A DNA stretch of 64,000 bases, from NCBI RefSeq assembly GCF_006385135.1, contig NZ_CP041025.1:2325501-2389500 (forward strand), written 5' to 3'. The stretch is from Paremcibacter congregatus (GTDB lineage: Bacteria; Pseudomonadota; Alphaproteobacteria; Sphingomonadales; Emcibacteraceae). A model generated the notes under the pieces. It searched no databases and was not told the origin of the DNA. It worked only from the letters and a program-made list of their open reading frames with translations. The position numbers and the translations under genes are program-made. The stretch's first letter is position 1. Each line of letters opens with the position of its first letter. This document shows, in pieces, positions 751-45,473 of this stretch.

Positions 751-1596
751 TTACTCCTCAAGCGTTTGAATAAAATTTTGTACCAGAAGGCGCAGACGCG
801 GAATGATCTGCTCTACATTCTCCCACACCTCTTCTTCTGTCGTAATTGCCGCCGCGTCAGGGTCATCAATAGCCATATTGGTAATGGCGCTGACCGCCAC
901 CACCCGAATTCCGGCATTGCGGGCCACGATGACCTCAGGCACTGTCGACATACCAACAGCGTCCACGCCCAGCTGGCGTAACAGTCTGATTTCCGCCGGT
1001 GATTCAAACGACGGCCCCACCAAAAAGCTATAGACACCTTTATGCAGCCGAACATCATGCGCCACCGCGCTCTGCTGCATCTTGATGATATGTGGTCGGT
1101 GATAGGCCTGATTCAGCGGTGTAAAGCGTGGACCAAGGTCTGGCAGATGCCGCCCCCGCGTCGGGTCAAGCCCTGTCATGCCCGCCAGATCAATATGGTC
1201 GTCAATAAGCATCAGATCGCCAACGGCATAGTCCCGGTTAATCCCCCCCGCCGCATTGGTGATCACCAGATCCTCGACACCGAGCATTTTCATGATCCGC
1301 ACCGGGAAAGTCACCTGTTGTGGCGTGTAGCCTTCATACATATGCACCCGCCCCTGCATGATTACCGCAGGCTGCCCCAGCAACATGCCTATATGCAGAC
1401 AGCCCGCATGGCCTGGCGCGCTGGAGGTCGGAAAATGCGGCAGTTGATCATATGGAATTGCCACCGCATCACTCATCAAGGCCGCAATATCGCCCAGACC
1501 GGACCCCAGAATCAGGCCCACTTTCGGGCGTAACGGCGTCAGGCCGGCAATCGCCGCGCAAGTTTCTTCATACTGCGCCAAACTGTAATCAGTCAT
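751..1596 (-). CDS. Purine nucleoside phosphorylase (trimeric PNP/MTAP family)
   Basis: This cytosolic enzyme splits purine (deoxy)nucleosides with phosphate to give base and (deoxy)ribose-1-phosphate. Family motifs run in order: LILGSGLG (phosphate loop), GHAG, QGRVHMYEGY, TNAAGG, GPSFESPAEIR and VGMSTVPEV. AITNMA near the C-terminus has the Asn that marks 6-oxopurine nucleoside phosphorylases, where methylthioadenosine phosphorylases have Asp. About 281 residues is normal for the family. Two adjacent ATGs exist (1596 and 1599) and a further in-frame one lies at 1623; no strong ribosome site decides among them. It is the first gene of an operon with mtnA. Tandem palindromic operators lie 65-93 bp upstream. 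Confidence 0.92.
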   Translation of the reverse strand: MTDYSLAQYEETCAAIAGLTPLRPKVGLILGSGLGDIAALMSDAVAIPYDQLPHFPTSSAPGHAGCLHIGMLLGQPAVIMQGRVHMYEGYTPQQVTFPVRIMKMLGVEDLVITNAAGGINRDYAVGDLMLIDDHIDLAGMTGLDPTRGRHLPDLGPRFTPLNQAYHRPHIIKMQQSAVAHDVRLHKGVYSFLVGPSFESPAEIRLLRQLGVDAVGMSTVPEVIVARNAGIRVVAVSAITNMAIDDPDAAAITTEEEVWENVEQIIPRLRLLVQNFIQTLEE

Positions 1597-1647
1597 CATG
1601 GAATCAGAGGTCTTTGTGCACATCAGATAAATATCCGGTTTTTTGAC

Positions 1648-1690
1648 TTATGAACTTATGAACATATGATCATAGTATTAACATATGTAA
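1648..1690 (-). promoter_or_regulatory. Operator array upstream of the PNP-mtnA operon
   Basis: Two near-palindromic 10-mers, AACATATGAT (1661-1670) and AACATATGTA (1680-1689), start 19 bp apart. The same spacing and core occur in front of nupC. Next to them is a tandem 8-bp repeat, TTATGAAC at 1648-1655 and 1656-1663. Inference: binding sites for a regulator of nucleoside use, most simply the SorC-family protein encoded at 3045-3998. Confidence 0.6.
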
Positions 1691-1725
1691 ATAATGTCGT
1701 CAAGAGTGGCCAAGTAGCGAGTATA

Positions 1726-2943
1726 TCACAAACTTAACAACAGGCTTACCAGAGCGGCACTCATCATATTGGACAGGAAGCCAGCCACGACAGCTTTAAA
1801 TCCCATCCGGGCGATTTCCGCCTTACGGGCTGGTGCCATCGCCCCTAGCCCGCCGAGAAGAATAGCGATGGAACTTAAATTGGCAAAACCGCAAAGCGCA
1901 AATGTCGAAACAATGACCGTATGAGGGTCCAGGCTATCCTTGATCTGCTGCAGTTGAGCATAGGCAACGAATTCATTGAGGATAAATTTCTGCCCCACCA
2001 GATTGCCCGCCGCCGCCGCATCCTGCCAGGGAATCCCCAGAAGATACATCACTGGCGACAGCAATTTTCCAAGGATCAGATCCATCGTGATACCTTCAAA
2101 ACCGGCCAGGCTGGCCAGCCCCCCGACCATGCCATTGAGCATGGCGATCAACGCCACGAAAGCCACCAGCATCGCACCGATAATGGCGGCTATCTTCAGC
2201 CCTGCCGCCGCGCCACTGGCTGCCGCATCAATGACATTGGCCGGACGTCCCTCATCCTCGACCGCCATAATGTCGATCACCGGCTCTGGCCGCGTCAAAT
2301 CGTCCGGTTTCATTATCTTGGCCATCAGCAGCCCCCCGGGCGCGGCCATAAAACTCGCCGCGATCAGATAATCAAGCTGCACGCCCATACTGGCGTATCC
2401 TGCCAGAATGGCACCCGATATTGACGCCATACCGGACACCATAATGGTAAAGAGCTGCGCCTCGCTCAACTGATTAAGGTAGGGCCGAACCACCAGAGGC
2501 GATTCCGTATGGCCTAGAAAAATATTGGCGGCGGCACAGAGCGATTCCACCCGCGATGTCCCGATCAGCTTGCGCATAATGCCCCCGACAAGCATCACCA
2601 CCCACTGCATGATATGAAGATAATACAATACCGAGACCAGGGCTGAAATAAAGATGATGACCGGAAGAACACGAACAAAGACCAGAAAACCATATTTATT
2701 CGTCGCCAAATCACCGAAGAGAAATTCAATGCCGTAGCCCGAATAATCTATAACATTCTGAACCCCGGACGACATGACTGCCAACACGTCCTTGCCCAGA
2801 GGGACGTACATGGCAAAAGTCGCCAGGGCCGCCTGCAATAAAAACGCGCTCCCAACAATACGAAGGTTAATTTTTTTACGGTTTTCCGACAGGAGCCAGG
2901 CCAGTAACAACACCAGAATGATACCAAAAAATCCAGATCCCAC
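1726..2943 (-). CDS. nupC: NupC-family concentrative nucleoside transporter
   Basis: This inner-membrane cation:nucleoside symporter (CNT family) has 405 residues, typical for bacterial NupC. Visible hallmarks are the N-terminal membrane helix, the gate region with GIMRKLIGTSRVESLCAAANIFLG, HTESPLVVRPYL, and the C-terminal NEFVAYAQL and STFALCGFANLSSI motifs that line the nucleoside and cation sites. The start is GTG at 2943, preceded at 5 bp by GGGAGAG. Two perfect AACATATGTT palindromes lie 21-49 bp upstream, over the expected promoter. It probably feeds nucleosides to the phosphorylase encoded next to it. The gene lies between the PNP operon and the SorC regulator, all on the minus strand. 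Confidence 0.95.
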   Translation of the reverse strand: MGSGFFGIILVLLLAWLLSENRKKINLRIVGSAFLLQAALATFAMYVPLGKDVLAVMSSGVQNVIDYSGYGIEFLFGDLATNKYGFLVFVRVLPVIIFISALVSVLYYLHIMQWVVMLVGGIMRKLIGTSRVESLCAAANIFLGHTESPLVVRPYLNQLSEAQLFTIMVSGMASISGAILAGYASMGVQLDYLIAASFMAAPGGLLMAKIMKPDDLTRPEPVIDIMAVEDEGRPANVIDAAASGAAAGLKIAAIIGAMLVAFVALIAMLNGMVGGLASLAGFEGITMDLILGKLLSPVMYLLGIPWQDAAAAGNLVGQKFILNEFVAYAQLQQIKDSLDPHTVIVSTFALCGFANLSSIAILLGGLGAMAPARKAEIARMGFKAVVAGFLSNMMSAALVSLLLSL

Positions 2944-2963
2944 GCAACTCTCCCTTTACATCT

Positions 2964-2992
2964 AACATATGTTCAATAATGAAACATATGTT
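2964..2992 (-). promoter_or_regulatory. Tandem palindromic operator upstream of nupC
   Basis: Perfect 10-bp palindromes AACATATGTT occur at 2964-2973 and 2983-2992, 19 bp apart (about two helical turns). They lie 21-49 bp before the GTG start of nupC. The core and spacing match the pair in front of the PNP-mtnA operon. Inference: a shared repressor or activator site. Confidence 0.65.
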
Positions 2993-3044
2993 GATTATTG
3001 TGCAAAAGCAACTTCTGACTAATGAGACAGCACCGTCCCTTAAC

Positions 3045-3998
3045 CTATCGGGCGATACTACGGGTCATGGCTTCGGCGAGTTCCACATCAATGATAATGC
3101 GGTTAAGGATACCGCAGCGAATGGCGCCAACCATCGAATTCGCCTTGTCAGCGCCGGCAGCCACACCAATGATATTGTCAATATTACGCAACTGCGCCAT
3201 ATCGATGGATATCATCGCCTCCTGCCAGGCCGTTTTGATTTCCTTGCCTTCAATGTCGTAATAATGGGACAAGACATCTCCGACCGCTCCTTGCCGCGCG
3301 ACCTTATCCAGTTCATCTGCGGAAATATATCCGGCCTTGACCAAAGTGGACTCCGTACTGACGTCACCAATCCCGACAAGGCCGATATTGCACTTTTCAA
3401 CCCAATGCAGGGTATTCTTGATTACAGGGTCCTGCATCAGACTATCCCGAACGGCCGGGTCCTTCAGGATCACGGGGGCCGGCAGAGATTCCACAGGAAT
3501 GCCAAACGAAAGCCCCAGACGCAAACATATATCCTGTGCATTCGCCGTGGCGATCCCACCGACATAACCGCCGAGTTGCACCACCCGTTCCGGCGCATAT
3601 TTTTCCTTCCGCAACAAATCTGGAATCTGCATCAGGGTACTGCTCCAGCCAATCCCCAAAATATGATCCTGCCTTAAGTTCTGGGACAGATATTGCGCGG
3701 CCCGTTCCGCAACTGCGGCTTTGGCGTCATTGTCATAGTTTTCGACCACGATAACCTCCAGCAGATTATCTGATGCAAATTCATTCTCTATCAGGGTTTC
3801 CAGATGCGTGGCGTGGGACAATTTCCTGGTAATTTTAATCTCGACGAATCCTTTCTGCCGCGCCTGCTTCAACAATCGAACAACCGTCGGACGCGAAAAG
3901 CCAAATTTCTTGGCAATCTGCTCCTGGGTATTACCATTGGTGTAATATAACGTAGCAGCCTTCAAAATCAGTTCATCGTTATTTTTTTCACGGGGCAT
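3045..3998 (-). CDS. SorC/DeoR-type sugar-binding transcriptional regulator
   Basis: The 317-residue protein has an N-terminal helix-turn-helix at about residues 20-50 (NTQEQIAKKFGFSRPTVVRLL) and a SorC-family sugar-phosphate-binding domain from about 60 to the end (GIGWSSTL, VVQLGGYVGG, VGIGDV, GVAAGADKANSMVGAIRCG). Family members bind phosphorylated sugars. Bacillus subtilis DeoR, of this family, senses deoxyribose-5-phosphate and represses nucleoside genes including nupC. Together with the adjacent nupC, PNP and mtnA this suggests a nucleoside-catabolism regulator. A 14-bp inverted repeat upstream (4041-4072) may be an autoregulatory site. The ligand is inferred from context only. Confidence 0.88.
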   Translation of the reverse strand: MPREKNNDELILKAATLYYTNGNTQEQIAKKFGFSRPTVVRLLKQARQKGFVEIKITRKLSHATHLETLIENEFASDNLLEVIVVENYDNDAKAAVAERAAQYLSQNLRQDHILGIGWSSTLMQIPDLLRKEKYAPERVVQLGGYVGGIATANAQDICLRLGLSFGIPVESLPAPVILKDPAVRDSLMQDPVIKNTLHWVEKCNIGLVGIGDVSTESTLVKAGYISADELDKVARQGAVGDVLSHYYDIEGKEIKTAWQEAMISIDMAQLRNIDNIIGVAAGADKANSMVGAIRCGILNRIIIDVELAEAMTRSIAR

Positions 3999-4141: not shown

Positions 4142-4188
4142 AAAACTGTCCCATTTTGGGAAAACTGTTAAGCATTCTTTACAGTTTT
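4142..4188 (+). promoter_or_regulatory. Candidate enhancer-binding-protein site array (three AAAACTGT elements)
   Basis: AAAACTGT occurs at 4142-4149 and 4161-4168 (19-bp period) and inverted as ACAGTTTT at 4181-4188. Relative to the start predicted from the -24/-12 promoter they fall at about -131, -112 and -92, the usual range for activators of sigma-54 promoters. The 3999-4427 stretch has no gene; it holds this array, the promoter and two inverted repeats. Confidence 0.5.
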
Positions 4189-4246
4189 CACACAGAAATA
4201 TTTTCACTATGCATCGAAACTGCAGAAACCTTATGGTTAACAAAAC

Positions 4247-4262
4247 AGGCACGATAATTGCA
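4247..4262 (+). promoter_or_regulatory. Sigma-54 (RpoN) type -24/-12 promoter
   Basis: The sequence AGGCACGATAATTGCA (4247-4262) matches the TGGCACG-N4-TTGCA consensus at all but the first base. The invariant GG (4248-4249) and GC (4260-4261) are separated by exactly 10 nt. Transcription is predicted to start near 4273, giving a leader of about 155 nt before the metzincin gene. The PEP-CTERM system has been linked to sigma-54 and the PrsK/PrsR two-component pair. Confidence 0.68.
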
Positions 4263-4271
4263 TGTAATCTA

Positions 4272-4323
4272 ATACAACCGTCAATAAGTAGAATAGTCTA
4301 AAAAAAATCTACAGCGGTTGTAT
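4272..4323 (+). repeat. 9-bp inverted repeat in the 5' leader
   Basis: ATACAACCG (4272-4280) and CGGTTGTAT (4315-4323) are perfect inverted copies separated by 34 nt. The left arm coincides with the start predicted from the sigma-54 promoter, so the transcript would begin in a stem-loop. This could stabilise the mRNA or bind a regulator; neither is demonstrated. Confidence 0.4.
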
Positions 4324-4427
4324 ATATGGAGAAAATTAATCAACAATTTTCAGAACTAAATCAAACGTCATTATCGGCCCTAAAAAGGTCCATCATAATG
4401 ATACCCAATGGAGGGGATATATTTAAT

Positions 4428-5999
4428 ATGAAAAGTACTTTTCTAAGTTCAATCGCAATAGCACTTGTCGCCTCAGTTTCTATACCCGCACTGGCTTCCG
4501 CCAGTGTTGTTAATAGTACTGATTTAATTATCGATTTAGACACAATTAATCAACATGTCCACGGGCCGGCCTGCAGTCACAATAATGCCCTGTCTTCCGC
4601 TCTGGAACAAAAACATCAGGCAATCTCCGGAAATGCAGCCTATGTCGCCATGGCGCCCGCCATCGCGGCCGTCGCCCCCGGCGTACCGGCCTCAACCGGG
4701 GCCAGCAGCCAGGGAACCCAGTTGGTATTCCTCGACTTTGACAGCGCAACCACAGGTACATACACCCGGACTTATAAAGAGAATGCCGACGGCTCCGGAG
4801 CCGACGTTACCCAGGTATTCCAGGAACATATCTACACAGCCCCGGAACGTGCGGCTGTAATGGCCAGCATGCAAAATGATTACGGCCATTTCGATATCGC
4901 TTTTACGACGGAAAAACCGGCAGGCGGCGAGTATTCCACACTGTTTTTTAACGCCAACATGCCCGGCGAAGGCAACGGCGTTGAGGCCGGCATACGGGTC
5001 GCTGACGGGGGCCGGGTAACAGGCATTCTCTGGGGTGCAGCGGACAATATCGACTTCCGCAACCTGAACCGCACAGATAATGCCAACCTGGACGCCAATT
5101 TCTGGGATGTTATTTCTGATAGTGGTTTTACTACCGTAACCGGCTTGGCCGCGACAGAAGAAAACCGCGCCATCGCCATTACCCGCCAAACCGCCCAAAC
5201 CGGTTCCCATGAACTGGGGCATGATCTGGGACTACGCCACCACGAAGCATGGGGGCCTCTCGGTACTGGATTGCCCACCACCGGCGTACCAGCTGATGGT
5301 CAATTCATCCCTGTTTATACTGGCCCACGAGGGGCGGATGAAACAACCCGACACCTGATGGTATCAGGGGCCAGCGGCGGCTCCAGTCTCGGTGGCTCTG
5401 TCACACAAGACAGATTCTTTGGCCTGCGCTCCGCTACAAAATTGACTTTCAATGAAGAAGGTCGGGTAATTCAGGAACAGGCTGGCCCGGGAGCACAATT
5501 TGTCGAACTGGTTAATCTTGATGTACCAAATACCGTAGAAAACGGACGGGACAAGAACAACCGGATCAGAGTTGCTGCGATTTCCATCGAAGGCCGGATT
5601 AGCGAAAGCGATGAAACCGACCTGTATATGTTTGAAGGAAATAAAGGCGATATCTTTAACTTCGAACTGACCTCCTTCGTCAATTCCAACAACCTTGATT
5701 ATATGGATGGTATTTTGGCGATTTTCGATGATCTTGGTAATTTCCTGACCTATAATGATGATGATTTTGAAGGTGTGGATTCGTTCCTGTTCGATTTCGT
5801 CCTCGAATATACCGGGAGATTCTTTGTACAGGTAAGTTCTTATAACTTCCTGCATCCCATTGATACTGTTGACGGAGACTTCTCTATCGGTAATTATCAA
5901 TTATACGCAACCCGGACCACCATTCCGGCACCAGGCATCTTCGGATTGATGATTCTGGGCCTCGTCGCTATGGGGCGCCGGAAATCATTGCTGAAATAA
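4428..5999 (+). CDS. Secreted metzincin-type zinc metalloprotease with PEP-CTERM anchor
   Basis: I recognise the domains but not a named family. A signal peptide (residues 1-25) is followed by a catalytic region with HELGHDLGLRH near residue 260, the HEXXHXXGXXH zinc site of metzincins. LMVSGAS about 65 residues later fits the Met-turn. A beta-rich domain at about 360-490 (DETDLYMFEGNKGDIF onward) resembles the bacterial pre-peptidase C-terminal domain. The protein ends in a PEP-CTERM-like signal, IPAPG then a hydrophobic helix and GRRK, recognised by exosortases. The only cysteine lies in HGPACSH near residue 45. The start at 4428 is set by GGAGGGG at 4410-4416; an upstream in-frame ATG (4326) lacks a ribosome site. 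It is followed 22 bp later by a small secreted protein in the same operon. No exosortase gene is in the window. Confidence 0.82.
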   Translation: MKSTFLSSIAIALVASVSIPALASASVVNSTDLIIDLDTINQHVHGPACSHNNALSSALEQKHQAISGNAAYVAMAPAIAAVAPGVPASTGASSQGTQLVFLDFDSATTGTYTRTYKENADGSGADVTQVFQEHIYTAPERAAVMASMQNDYGHFDIAFTTEKPAGGEYSTLFFNANMPGEGNGVEAGIRVADGGRVTGILWGAADNIDFRNLNRTDNANLDANFWDVISDSGFTTVTGLAATEENRAIAITRQTAQTGSHELGHDLGLRHHEAWGPLGTGLPTTGVPADGQFIPVYTGPRGADETTRHLMVSGASGGSSLGGSVTQDRFFGLRSATKLTFNEEGRVIQEQAGPGAQFVELVNLDVPNTVENGRDKNNRIRVAAISIEGRISESDETDLYMFEGNKGDIFNFELTSFVNSNNLDYMDGILAIFDDLGNFLTYNDDDFEGVDSFLFDFVLEYTGRFFVQVSSYNFLHPIDTVDGDFSIGNYQLYATRTTIPAPGIFGLMILGLVAMGRRKSLLK

Positions 6000-6021: not shown

Positions 6022-6555
6022 ATGAAATTATCTCTTGTTTATTTTATCCTGCTGCTCATGCTAACAACCGCCGCGCCTTGGCATCTGAATGCCCAAGGCG
6101 CGGCGGACCTTCAAAACGCTGCCGCACCAGATAAATCCTATCGCGTGGACATTGCCGCAGCCCCCCTCACCCGGACGATTCAAAACGCCGCCGCCATTGT
6201 GGTGGCCCATCGTGAGAATAAGTTCCCTCTCTCTTCCTCCCATGATCAAACCGTCACCTATACTTTTAAAGTAGTGCAGTCTTTGAAAGGCGATGTGCCA
6301 GATTTCATTGAGGTTCAAAGCCCTGGTTCCACCATGCCTTTTTCTCCACAAAAAGATCAGGACTACCTGCTTTTCCTCGCCTCACAGAGCAACGACGGGA
6401 CCGCAAAATCCTACGGAATCATGTCCCACGCGCTTACCACCGCCCTGATCTTTCCAGTAGCGGCAACCGGACAGTTAGGCGGACGCAAGCCGCCCGGACG
6501 TGACTGGCAAAACCTTACTCTTGATAAAGTCAAAACCCTGATCGCATCTGAATGA
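6022..6555 (+). CDS. Small secreted protein with TIMP/netrin-like sequence pattern (function unknown)
   Basis: The 177-residue protein has a signal peptide cleaved near LNA-QGA at residue 25 and no cysteines. I see the order: a hydrophobic AAAIVVAHREN strand, then TYTFKVVQSLKGD, FIEVQSPGS, and DYLLFLASQSNDG. This pattern occurs in the OB-fold of tissue inhibitors of metalloproteases and in many bacterial secreted proteins. The catalytic-site-binding N-terminal Cys of animal TIMPs is absent. AGGAG stands 8 bp before the ATG and the gene begins 22 bp after the metzincin stop, so the two should be co-transcribed. A partner, chaperone or inhibitor role is inference only. Confidence 0.75.
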   Translation: MKLSLVYFILLLMLTTAAPWHLNAQGAADLQNAAAPDKSYRVDIAAAPLTRTIQNAAAIVVAHRENKFPLSSSHDQTVTYTFKVVQSLKGDVPDFIEVQSPGSTMPFSPQKDQDYLLFLASQSNDGTAKSYGIMSHALTTALIFPVAATGQLGGRKPPGRDWQNLTLDKVKTLIASE

Positions 6556-44063: not shown

Positions 44064-45473
44064 ATGACGAAGAAAGTAATCACACGCTTCGCCCCGTCTC
44101 CTACGGGATTTTTACATATCGGCGGTGCCCGTACGGCCCTCTTTAACTGGCTGTTTGCAAAGCATCACGGCGGCGAGTTTCACCTGCGGATTGAAGACAC
44201 GGATCGCAAGCGCCTGACCGAAGGCGCCGTGGAAGCCATCCACGAGGGCATGGCCTGGCTCGGCCTGTCCCATGACGGTGATGTCATCAGCCAATTTGAA
44301 CAGCGGGATCGTCACGTCGAAGTTGCGCAAAAACTTCTGGCCGAAGGCAAGGCCTATTACTGTTATTGTTCCCCGGAAGAATTGACGGAAATGCGTGAGA
44401 AAGCCCGCGCAGAAGGCAAGCCCATCGGCTATGATGGCCGCTGGCGTGACCGGGATCCGTCTGAAGCCCCCGAAGGCATCAAGCCTGTTGTACGCTTTAA
44501 ATCCCCGAACGAAGGCCAAACCGTTATTCACGACAAGGTTCAGGGCACCGTTACCGTTGAGAATACCCAACTGGATGATATGATCCTGTTGCGCGCCGAT
44601 GGCTCTCCGACTTACATGCTGTCGGTGGTGGTTGATGACCATGATATGGGCGTTACCCATGTAATTCGTGGGGATGACCATCTGACCAATGCCGCACGTC
44701 AGGCTCAATTGATTGAAGCCATCGGATGGGATCTGCCGGTTTATGCCCATATCCCGTTAATTCACGGGCCCGACGGCGCCAAATTGTCAAAACGCCACGG
44801 CGCTCTTGGCGTTGAAGCCTATCGCGACATGGGATACCTGCCCAGCGCTCTTAAAAATTATCTGGTCCGCCTTGGCTGGGCTCATGGCGATGACGAAATT
44901 TTCTCCGAACAGCAGGCCATTGAATGGTTCAGCCTGGAAGGGATCGGCAAATCCCCGTCACGGTTTGATTTCGTTAAGCTGGAAAACCTCAATGGTTATT
45001 ACATCCGCGAGGCGGCCTCTAATGAGACCTTGGTTGAAATATGCCGGCCCTTGATTGAGAAAAATCTGGGACGGCCGCTTACAGATGATGAGGCTGCTTT
45101 ACTGGTTCCCGCCATGGATGAATTCAAACCCCGGGCCAAAAACCTTAATGATCTGGCGGAAAGCACCCTGTTTCTGTTTGCAGAACGTCCGCTGACCATG
45201 ATCCCGAAAGCGGAAAAAATTCTGACAGAAGATGCCAAACAAATCCTGACCAAGGCCATCGCGGTTCTCGATCAGGCGGCGGCCTGGGACATCGAAAGCC
45301 TGGAAGCCGATATCAAGGCGTTTGCCGAAAATCAGGACCTGAAACTGGGAAAAGTCGCCCAACCGCTCAGGGCAGCCTTGACCGGAAGCAATGTTTCGCC
45401 CGGAATTTTCGATATATTGGTCTGGCTCGGGAAAACAGAAAGTCTGGCTCGGTTAAAAGATCAAGCCGCCTAA
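44064..45473 (+). CDS. gltX: Glutamyl-tRNA synthetase
   Basis: This class I synthetase has 469 residues. The HIGH-type signature is [18 protein letters not shown] near residue 10 and the KMSKS-type signature [10 protein letters not shown] near 240. The zinc-like region [12 protein letters not shown] and the C-terminal helical anticodon domain are present. Alphaproteobacteria often carry two gltX genes, one charging tRNA-Gln for amidation; which form this is cannot be decided by eye. The start is fixed by [13 protein letters not shown]. Confidence 0.97.

Follow-up and report, generated by a model that had tools for sequence, protein, structure and literature searches.

The closest described promoters are those of PEP-CTERM genes. 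Excerpts of Haft et al. (2006; PMC1569441) report a motif layout that precedes 99 of 167 proteobacterial PEP-CTERM genes and tie it to PrsK, PrsR, and PrsT. The spacer between the motifs had a mean of 62.8 (SD 10.6, range 32–92), and the distance from motif 2 to the start codon had a mean of 71 (SD 38.5, extreme 221). These excerpts hold no mention of helical spacing classes or of an IHF-like site. For pepA of Aquincola tertiaricarbonis, a mapped -24/-12 start, RpoN1 dependence, and a predicted upstream enhancer are described in the relevant part of PMC9850573. The nifLA promoter was shown to depend on the face of the helix (Minchin, 1989, as cited in a passage of PMC7408454), and the placement of IHF between enhancer and promoter is, according to the corresponding part of PMC7962754, an established trait of RpoN promoters generally.

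Here, we analyzed a window of 64 kb (G000:C1:2325501-2389500), by which we mean the whole stretch of DNA under study, taken from the single 4.19-Mb contig of genome G000, hereafter the own genome. The features around the gene of a putative metalloprotease are as follows.

3045..3998, minus strand: DeoR/SorC-type regulator gene, divergent (PF04198 over cut-off; NF053881 214.5 bits, cut-off 420)
4147..4163, plus strand: distal element TGTCCCATTTTGGGAAA, which begins within the AAAACTGT copy at 4142
4166..4183, plus strand: motif 1-like enhancer of the PrsR type in an 18-bp register, TGTTAAGCATTCTTTACA, by matrix score
4184..4245, plus strand: enhancer-promoter spacer of 62 nt, main helical class by spacer classes, IHF-like site absent
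4246..4262, plus strand: sigma-54 -24/-12 element CAGGCACGATAATTGCA, score 28.5 of 30.5 with our own weights
4272..4323, plus strand: inverted repeat, hairpin at the predicted mRNA 5' end
4273, plus strand: predicted transcription start, 12 nt past the C of the -12 GC
4297..4313, minus strand: leader element, aligned with the inverted motif 1 of the ortholog loci L098 and L099
4428..5999, plus strand: secreted metalloprotease with HELGHDLGLRH and the PEP-CTERM-like tail IPAPGIFGLMILGLVAMGRRKSLLK, by motif and tail profile
6022..6555, plus strand: 177-aa ORF, starting 22 nt past the protease stop

We consider it very probable that the stretch in front of the protease gene serves as promoter for one of the genes in this genome's PEP-CTERM regulon, which would be under the control of RpoN and PrsR. 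As far as the excerpts of PMC1569441 describe the class, the locus shares with it the TTTACA 3' end of motif 1, a spacer (62 nt) within the published range, the -24(GG)/-12(GC) of motif 2, a large intergenic region, and a genome encoding PrsR, PrsK, PrsT, and RpoN. It differs in motif 1, which spans 18 bp from TGT to ACA instead of 17, and in the start codon, which lies 165 nt past motif 2. Since a 17-nt motif 1 is missing, we term the protease promoter a variant and not a plain member of the class. The pepA promoter is alike in its -24/-12 element 5' of a PEP-CTERM gene and its predicted enhancer upstream, but it serves another gene, and the 18-bp variant goes unmentioned in the consulted part of PMC9850573. 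The likeness to NtrC/NifA-type sigma-54 promoters lies in the tethered activator, the loop, the face-of-the-helix dependence described for nifLA, and the IHF position given in PMC7962754; the activator and its sites are different, and the PEP-CTERM spacing rule presented below spans a whole class in many genomes. The overall design has been largely known since 2006, and the earlier note, which had proposed that an enhancer-binding activator switches on the protease, was right in kind. What is added, as predicted from sequence comparison, is a conserved enhancer variant of 18 bp, the division of the spacings into helical classes, an IHF-like site, and a putative enhancer copy in the leader.

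Core promoter

All sigma-54 scores, at 4246-4262 and elsewhere, were obtained with a consensus and weights that we assume. Against this consensus (YTGGCACGNNNNTTGCW), the 17-mer at 4246-4262 has one mismatch, whereas every other site of the 64 kb has at least two; the -24 box of the 17-mer is AGG instead of TGG. The GG (4248-4249) and GC (4260-4261) of this 17-mer, contained in AGGCACGATAATTGCA, lie exactly where a GG-N10-GC at 4248-4261 had been reported before. Matches with up to two mismatches number 5 in the window versus 6.4 in shuffles. The convincing part is the combination of enhancer and promoter rather than the modest -24/-12 match alone: the joint arrangement (enhancer ≥20 in the 17- or 18-bp register, sigma-54 ≥26, spacing 40–99, all thresholds fixed only after the site was known) occurs once in the window and in none of 120 simulated 64-kb sequences, 60 of which had the base composition of the protease intergenic region. 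A relaxed minus-strand pair near 45210 (enhancer 16.9, spacer 71, sigma-54 24.5) overlaps a plus-strand ORF, and in the sigma-54 match listed at 45123 GA replaces GC; the pair was regarded as chance.

By sequence geometry, transcription would start at 4273. The protease most likely begins with the ATG at 4428, with GGAGGGG at 4410-4416, so the leader would comprise about 155 nt.

PEP-CTERM regulon of the own genome

Promoter and upstream element, which the earlier note had proposed to look for across the genome, recur in front of other PEP-CTERM genes. The PF07589 (PEP-CTERM) profile search yielded 21 places, 16 of them over the cut-off; L035 (12.1 bits, start codon missing) was excluded, which left 20. 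At 15 of these the sigma-54 score is at least 26.5 (14 of the 16 over the cut-off and one of the four below it, L031), and at the remaining five it does not exceed 24.5. Every one of the 15 strong sites has an TGTCAGGATTCTTTACA-like enhancer with 0–4 mismatches 53–83 nt upstream, which supports the proposed control by sigma-54 and an enhancer-binding activator. The enhancer of L023 is inverted, while L015 and L021 have a direct plus an inverted copy; in L021 and L023 the copy nearest the consensus is the inverted one, and the spacing lists take the direct copy for L021 (75) and the inverted copy for L023 (83). Throughout the own genome, 29 enhancer sites with up to two mismatches were counted versus 5 for the reversed pattern.

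Two further loci were observed in this genome. The minus-strand ORF 485-1162 of L305 has a PEP-CTERM-like tail, DAPASMGLLLLGIMVLGVRLRLR, is missing from the PF07589 list, and is preceded by a regulon-type promoter (L295, spacer 74). At L309 (G000:C1:1571823-1572138), which lies about 2 kb away from the single exosortase gene that was found, enhancer sites lie in both directions next to a trypsin-like protease ORF (PF13365); the sole sigma-54 match listed there is on the minus strand and has a TTGAA end without GC.

The regulators named in the earlier note, PrsK and PrsR, are both encoded. PrsR reached 699.7 bits (cut-off 502.6), whereas the other nine of the 10 strong sigma-54 activators fall below this cut-off. 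In the same 18 kb, the prs/eps locus, PrsK and PrsT are over their cut-offs, and so are three glycosyltransferases specific to the system and an acyltransferase associated with the exosortase; one RpoN and one exosortase were found in the genome. The prs/eps locus (L096, G000:C1:2042000-2060000) has a PEP-CTERM gene at its edge and comprises two PEP-CTERM glycosyltransferases, PrsT, PrsR, PrsK, an EpsB-type transferase, and the exosortase-associated acyltransferase.

In a search of 99 genomes with completeness of at least 90, the own genome included, PrsK was over the cut-off in 64 and the strict enhancer-promoter pair was present in 26. All 26 belong to the PrsK-positive genomes (26/64 vs 0/35 in the others; hypergeometric 1.2e-6, relatedness not corrected), and the other 38 of the 64 are without a strict pair. 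Seven genomes of genus g5 in the same family (G020, G021, G022, G024, G027, G028, and G029) have PrsK over the cut-off and no strict pair.

Spacing between enhancer and promoter

The spacers of the 15 own promoters are 53, 61–64, 74–75, and 82–83 nt. The public scan was restricted to gaps of 46–76 and covered 80 of at least 119 listed loci; it gave 81 pairs (79 after removal of near-duplicates) with spacers of 50–52, 58–64, and 69–75 and none of 53–57 or 65–68. The search of relatives gave 71 pairs at 50–54, 60–65, and 72–74 and overlaps the own set, as it includes G000 and promoters present in other sets. Within 2.6 nt of 62 + n × 10.5 lie all 15 own spacers, 78 of the 81 external ones among the matches listed, and 61 of the 63 non-own pairs of relatives, where a uniform spread would place a fraction of 0.52. 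None of 20,000 smoothed nulls reached the observed concentration. The period of 10.5 is compatible with the data rather than measured, because the best-fit period ranges from 10.2 (own) to 11.6 (external). Four of 96 promoters (L130, L160, L177, and L190) have no enhancer of at least 14 and were left out of the spacing list.

A blind set of 39 further loci among the matches listed, unseen earlier and examined last with fixed criteria, gave 39 pairs, 37 of them in phase and none at 53–57 or 65–68. Judged from these sequences, the enhancer-promoter spacing falls in helical-turn classes, and the blind loci confirm it. No report of spacing rules for PEP-CTERM promoters was found in the open-licence literature.

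The 18-bp enhancer and the distal element

On a matrix built from the genome's 15 other sites, which themselves score 22.6–33.0, the protease enhancer scores 6.4 in the 17-bp register. Skipping one base raises this to 25.9, inside the range of the other sites, although the higher score is favored by the choice among four places for the skip. The enhancers of the orthologs L098 and L099 likewise need the 18-bp register (27.0 and 23.6). This register was found in 4 of 43 promoters of four genomes (17 own, with the window and L295 included, 14 of G016, and 6 each of G017 and G018, that of G018 after two exclusions, the pairs of these three picked irrespective of the left half), and three of the four are those of the protease and its orthologs. 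The fourth, L286 in G016, is upstream of an ordinary PEP-CTERM-like gene and has a perfect IHF-like site. L302 and L303, both with spacer 67 and lacking the left half, were not counted among these pairs of relatives.

The palindrome GAAAACTGT-N12-ACAGTTTTC (4160-4189) occurs once in the window versus 0.05 expected at up to three mismatches, and AAAACTGT occurs five times (4142, 4161, inverted at 4181, and two more) versus 1.5 expected. An array of upstream elements had been seen in the copies at 4142, 4161, and 4181. The three copies are there, but they do not form a three-enhancer array: those at 4161 and 4181 are the flanks of one palindromic 18-bp site, and the one at 4142 borders the separate distal element.

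It is possible that the distal element at 4147-4163 represents a degenerate second activator site. The pattern TGTCNCATTTTGNNACA is present with up to two mismatches in 4 of 16 promoters (the window, L019, L028, and L025; mononucleotide shuffles mean 0.03, maximum 1), of which only L025 is independent, since the other three had served to define the pattern by eye. Directly 5' of the enhancer, a TGTCYCATTTTGRRACA element recurs in L019, L028, L025, and at 4147-4163 of the window. A plain tandem motif 1 was rejected for the distal element, which is absent from the top 17-bp matrix matches of the region.

IHF-like site

Alignment of the 63 main-class spacers revealed TAA....TTGA about 30 nt 5' of the sigma-54 site. 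We call this element IHF-like on the basis of an IHF consensus that we assume, and it is a probable DNA-bending site. Matches were counted in one orientation within -34..-28 with at most one mismatch, and the shuffles were mononucleotide shuffles. The site was present in 29 of 81 external spacers among the matches listed (shuffles mean 0.7, maximum 3), 14 of 26 spacers of relatives (0.3, maximum 2), 3 of 15 own spacers (0.2, maximum 2), and 13 of 39 of the blind set among the matches listed (0.33, maximum 3). The 39 loci are the sole blind test, as the placement was learned on the external and own promoters, and the 26 promoters of relatives are not blind because the idea came from reading their spacers. 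At up to two mismatches, the signal is found in 57 of 81 spacers of the 58–65 class vs 6 of 22 of the 69–75 class. No statement on IHF at PEP-CTERM promoters was found in the open-licence literature.

The share of promoters with the site ranges from 20 to 54% by set, and it is absent in the protease group. In the protease spacer the best match has three mismatches anywhere and four at the usual place, and in the window and both orthologs there are 3–4 mismatches at the usual place. At the protease alone this is unremarkable, since 12 of the 15 own promoters also lack the site.

Leader

The 9-bp inverted repeat that had been noticed near the predicted start was found again, with arms at 4272-4280 and 4315-4323. 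Its fold z is -2.98 over 158 nt and -4.08 over the first 60 nt. At the 5' ends of the 15 own promoters the mean is -0.63 (only L030, -4.51, is as strong), the orthologs have -0.53 and -0.32, and the mean of 81 external promoters among the matches listed is 0.10. The hairpin was rejected as a class-wide feature by these z values.

About 25 nt past the predicted start, the leaders of the protease and of its two orthologs have an element in common, which is an inverted 17-bp motif 1 in L098 (15.3) and L099 (20.9) and a weak remnant in the window (1.06). The window element at 4297-4313 apparently is a decayed inverted motif 1. A downstream site of at least 14 was found in 0 of 96 other promoters among the matches listed. 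A role of the leader element as the enhancer of an opposite-strand promoter was rejected, because the best minus-strand sigma-54 scores are only 16.5–19.5 vs 26.5–30.5 for the 15 real sites.

Metalloprotease and neighboring genes

The 523-aa product contains the metzincin motif HExxHxxGxxH as HELGHDLGLRH at residues 261-271, and the H, E, L, G, H, G, R, and H of this zinc motif are invariant in six homologs. Matches to Reprolysin_5 and Reprolysin_2 stay below the cut-off, PDB matches are weak (best E 0.014), mostly to metzincins and around the zinc motif, and the AlphaFold model (mean pLDDT 39.5) is too poor for fold comparison. The N-terminus is signal-peptide-like, and the tail reads by eye as IPAPG-helix-RRK. 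Against a profile of 16 own PEP-CTERM tails, E is 1.8e-7 for the tail alone and 1e-5 for the whole protein, with 0.023 as the best of 200 shuffles; the protease is absent from the PF07589 places (E ≤10) and from the NCBIfam matches (E ≤0.01). Its PAPG-type tail resembles those of L026, L030, and L031, the ortholog tails have IPAPS and VSAPA, and the more distant homologs L100, L101, and L103 have no recognizable tail. These sequences make the product a well-motivated candidate protease and candidate substrate of the exosortase.

Homologs of the protease were found in 7 of 147 genomes, the own included. Only two are orthologs of the same family; they belong to two other genera (56 and 54% identity), and their promoters, L098 and L099, retain the enhancer, the spacing class, and the -24/-12 element, with spacers of 73 and 64. 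The 177-aa ORF is probably cotranscribed with the protease, and a homolog of it also lies 3' of the ortholog in L099 (35% over 128 aa). On the other side, window positions 751-3998 hold a nucleoside uptake cluster with the DeoR/SorC-type regulator, a NupC transporter, and a purine nucleoside phosphorylase. The DeoR/SorC-type regulator is not part of the PEP-CTERM system.

Alternative explanations

Regulators of the DeoR/SorC type often adjoin their own operator, and the gene of this one is divergent from and adjacent to the protease, so the AAAACTGT palindrome could be its operator and govern the nucleoside operon, in which case the sigma-54 site would be incidental. However, the element does not travel with the regulator in two dissociation tests: L098 and L099 keep the enhancer next to a divergent chromate transporter ORF (PF02417), with no regulator found there, and the regulator ortholog of G004 (79%; genome 69% complete) is without the element in 520 bp upstream. 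A close homolog of the regulator was found only in the own genome and G004 among 60 genomes. As the element is, moreover, common to 15 PEP-CTERM promoters, we regard the operator as highly improbable. Even less credible, to a degree that is practically negligible, is a fortuitous -24/-12 match in an AT-rich intergenic region; such matches are indeed no commoner in the window than in shuffles, but the joint arrangement never appeared in the simulated sequences, and it is conserved in the orthologs.

An enhancer-binding protein other than PrsR might read the 18-bp variant at the protease, a reading that we consider unlikely, although less so than the operator. It is a candidate because five of the 10 strong activators (L002, L004, L006, L007, and L008) reach no named NCBIfam cut-off, and the rarity of the 18-bp register, nearly confined to the protease and its orthologs, would agree with it. 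On the other hand, the half-sites and flanks match the regulon, the spacing is in the common class, and the 18-bp L286 precedes an ordinary PEP-CTERM gene together with its perfect IHF-like site.

Proposed activation and significance

We hypothesize that control by RpoN and PrsR operates as follows. PrsR, activated by the kinase PrsK, would bind as a dimer to the palindrome, whose center lies about 98 nt 5' of the predicted start, oligomerize, contact the promoter over the spacer of six helical turns, and use ATP to open the sigma-54 holoenzyme. At many promoters of this class elsewhere, IHF about 30 nt upstream probably bends the DNA. The exported metalloprotease would be made along with the exosortase substrates, about fifteen other surface proteins. 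Because of its 18-bp enhancer and missing IHF-like site, the protease promoter may respond more weakly or later. We put forward only tentatively, and at somewhat less than even chance, that PEP-CTERM promoters follow a strict plan, in which the enhancer is held on a fixed helix face relative to sigma-54, often with IHF, and that the protease promoter departs from this plan in a conserved way, giving the protease other timing or activation that limits itself. This exception would comprise the 18-bp enhancer, the lack of an IHF site, and, in two of three genera, the inverted enhancer copy in the leader.

In the open-licence literature, the control of exosortase substrates by PrsR remains the prediction made in 2006. 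With the spacing rule and the IHF-like site, this logo-level prediction becomes a directly testable geometry. A co-regulated metalloprotease suggests that remodeling of surface proteins is switched on alongside the surface proteins. If the protease is indeed the exception to a strict plan, its timing would differ from that of the surface proteins that it may process.
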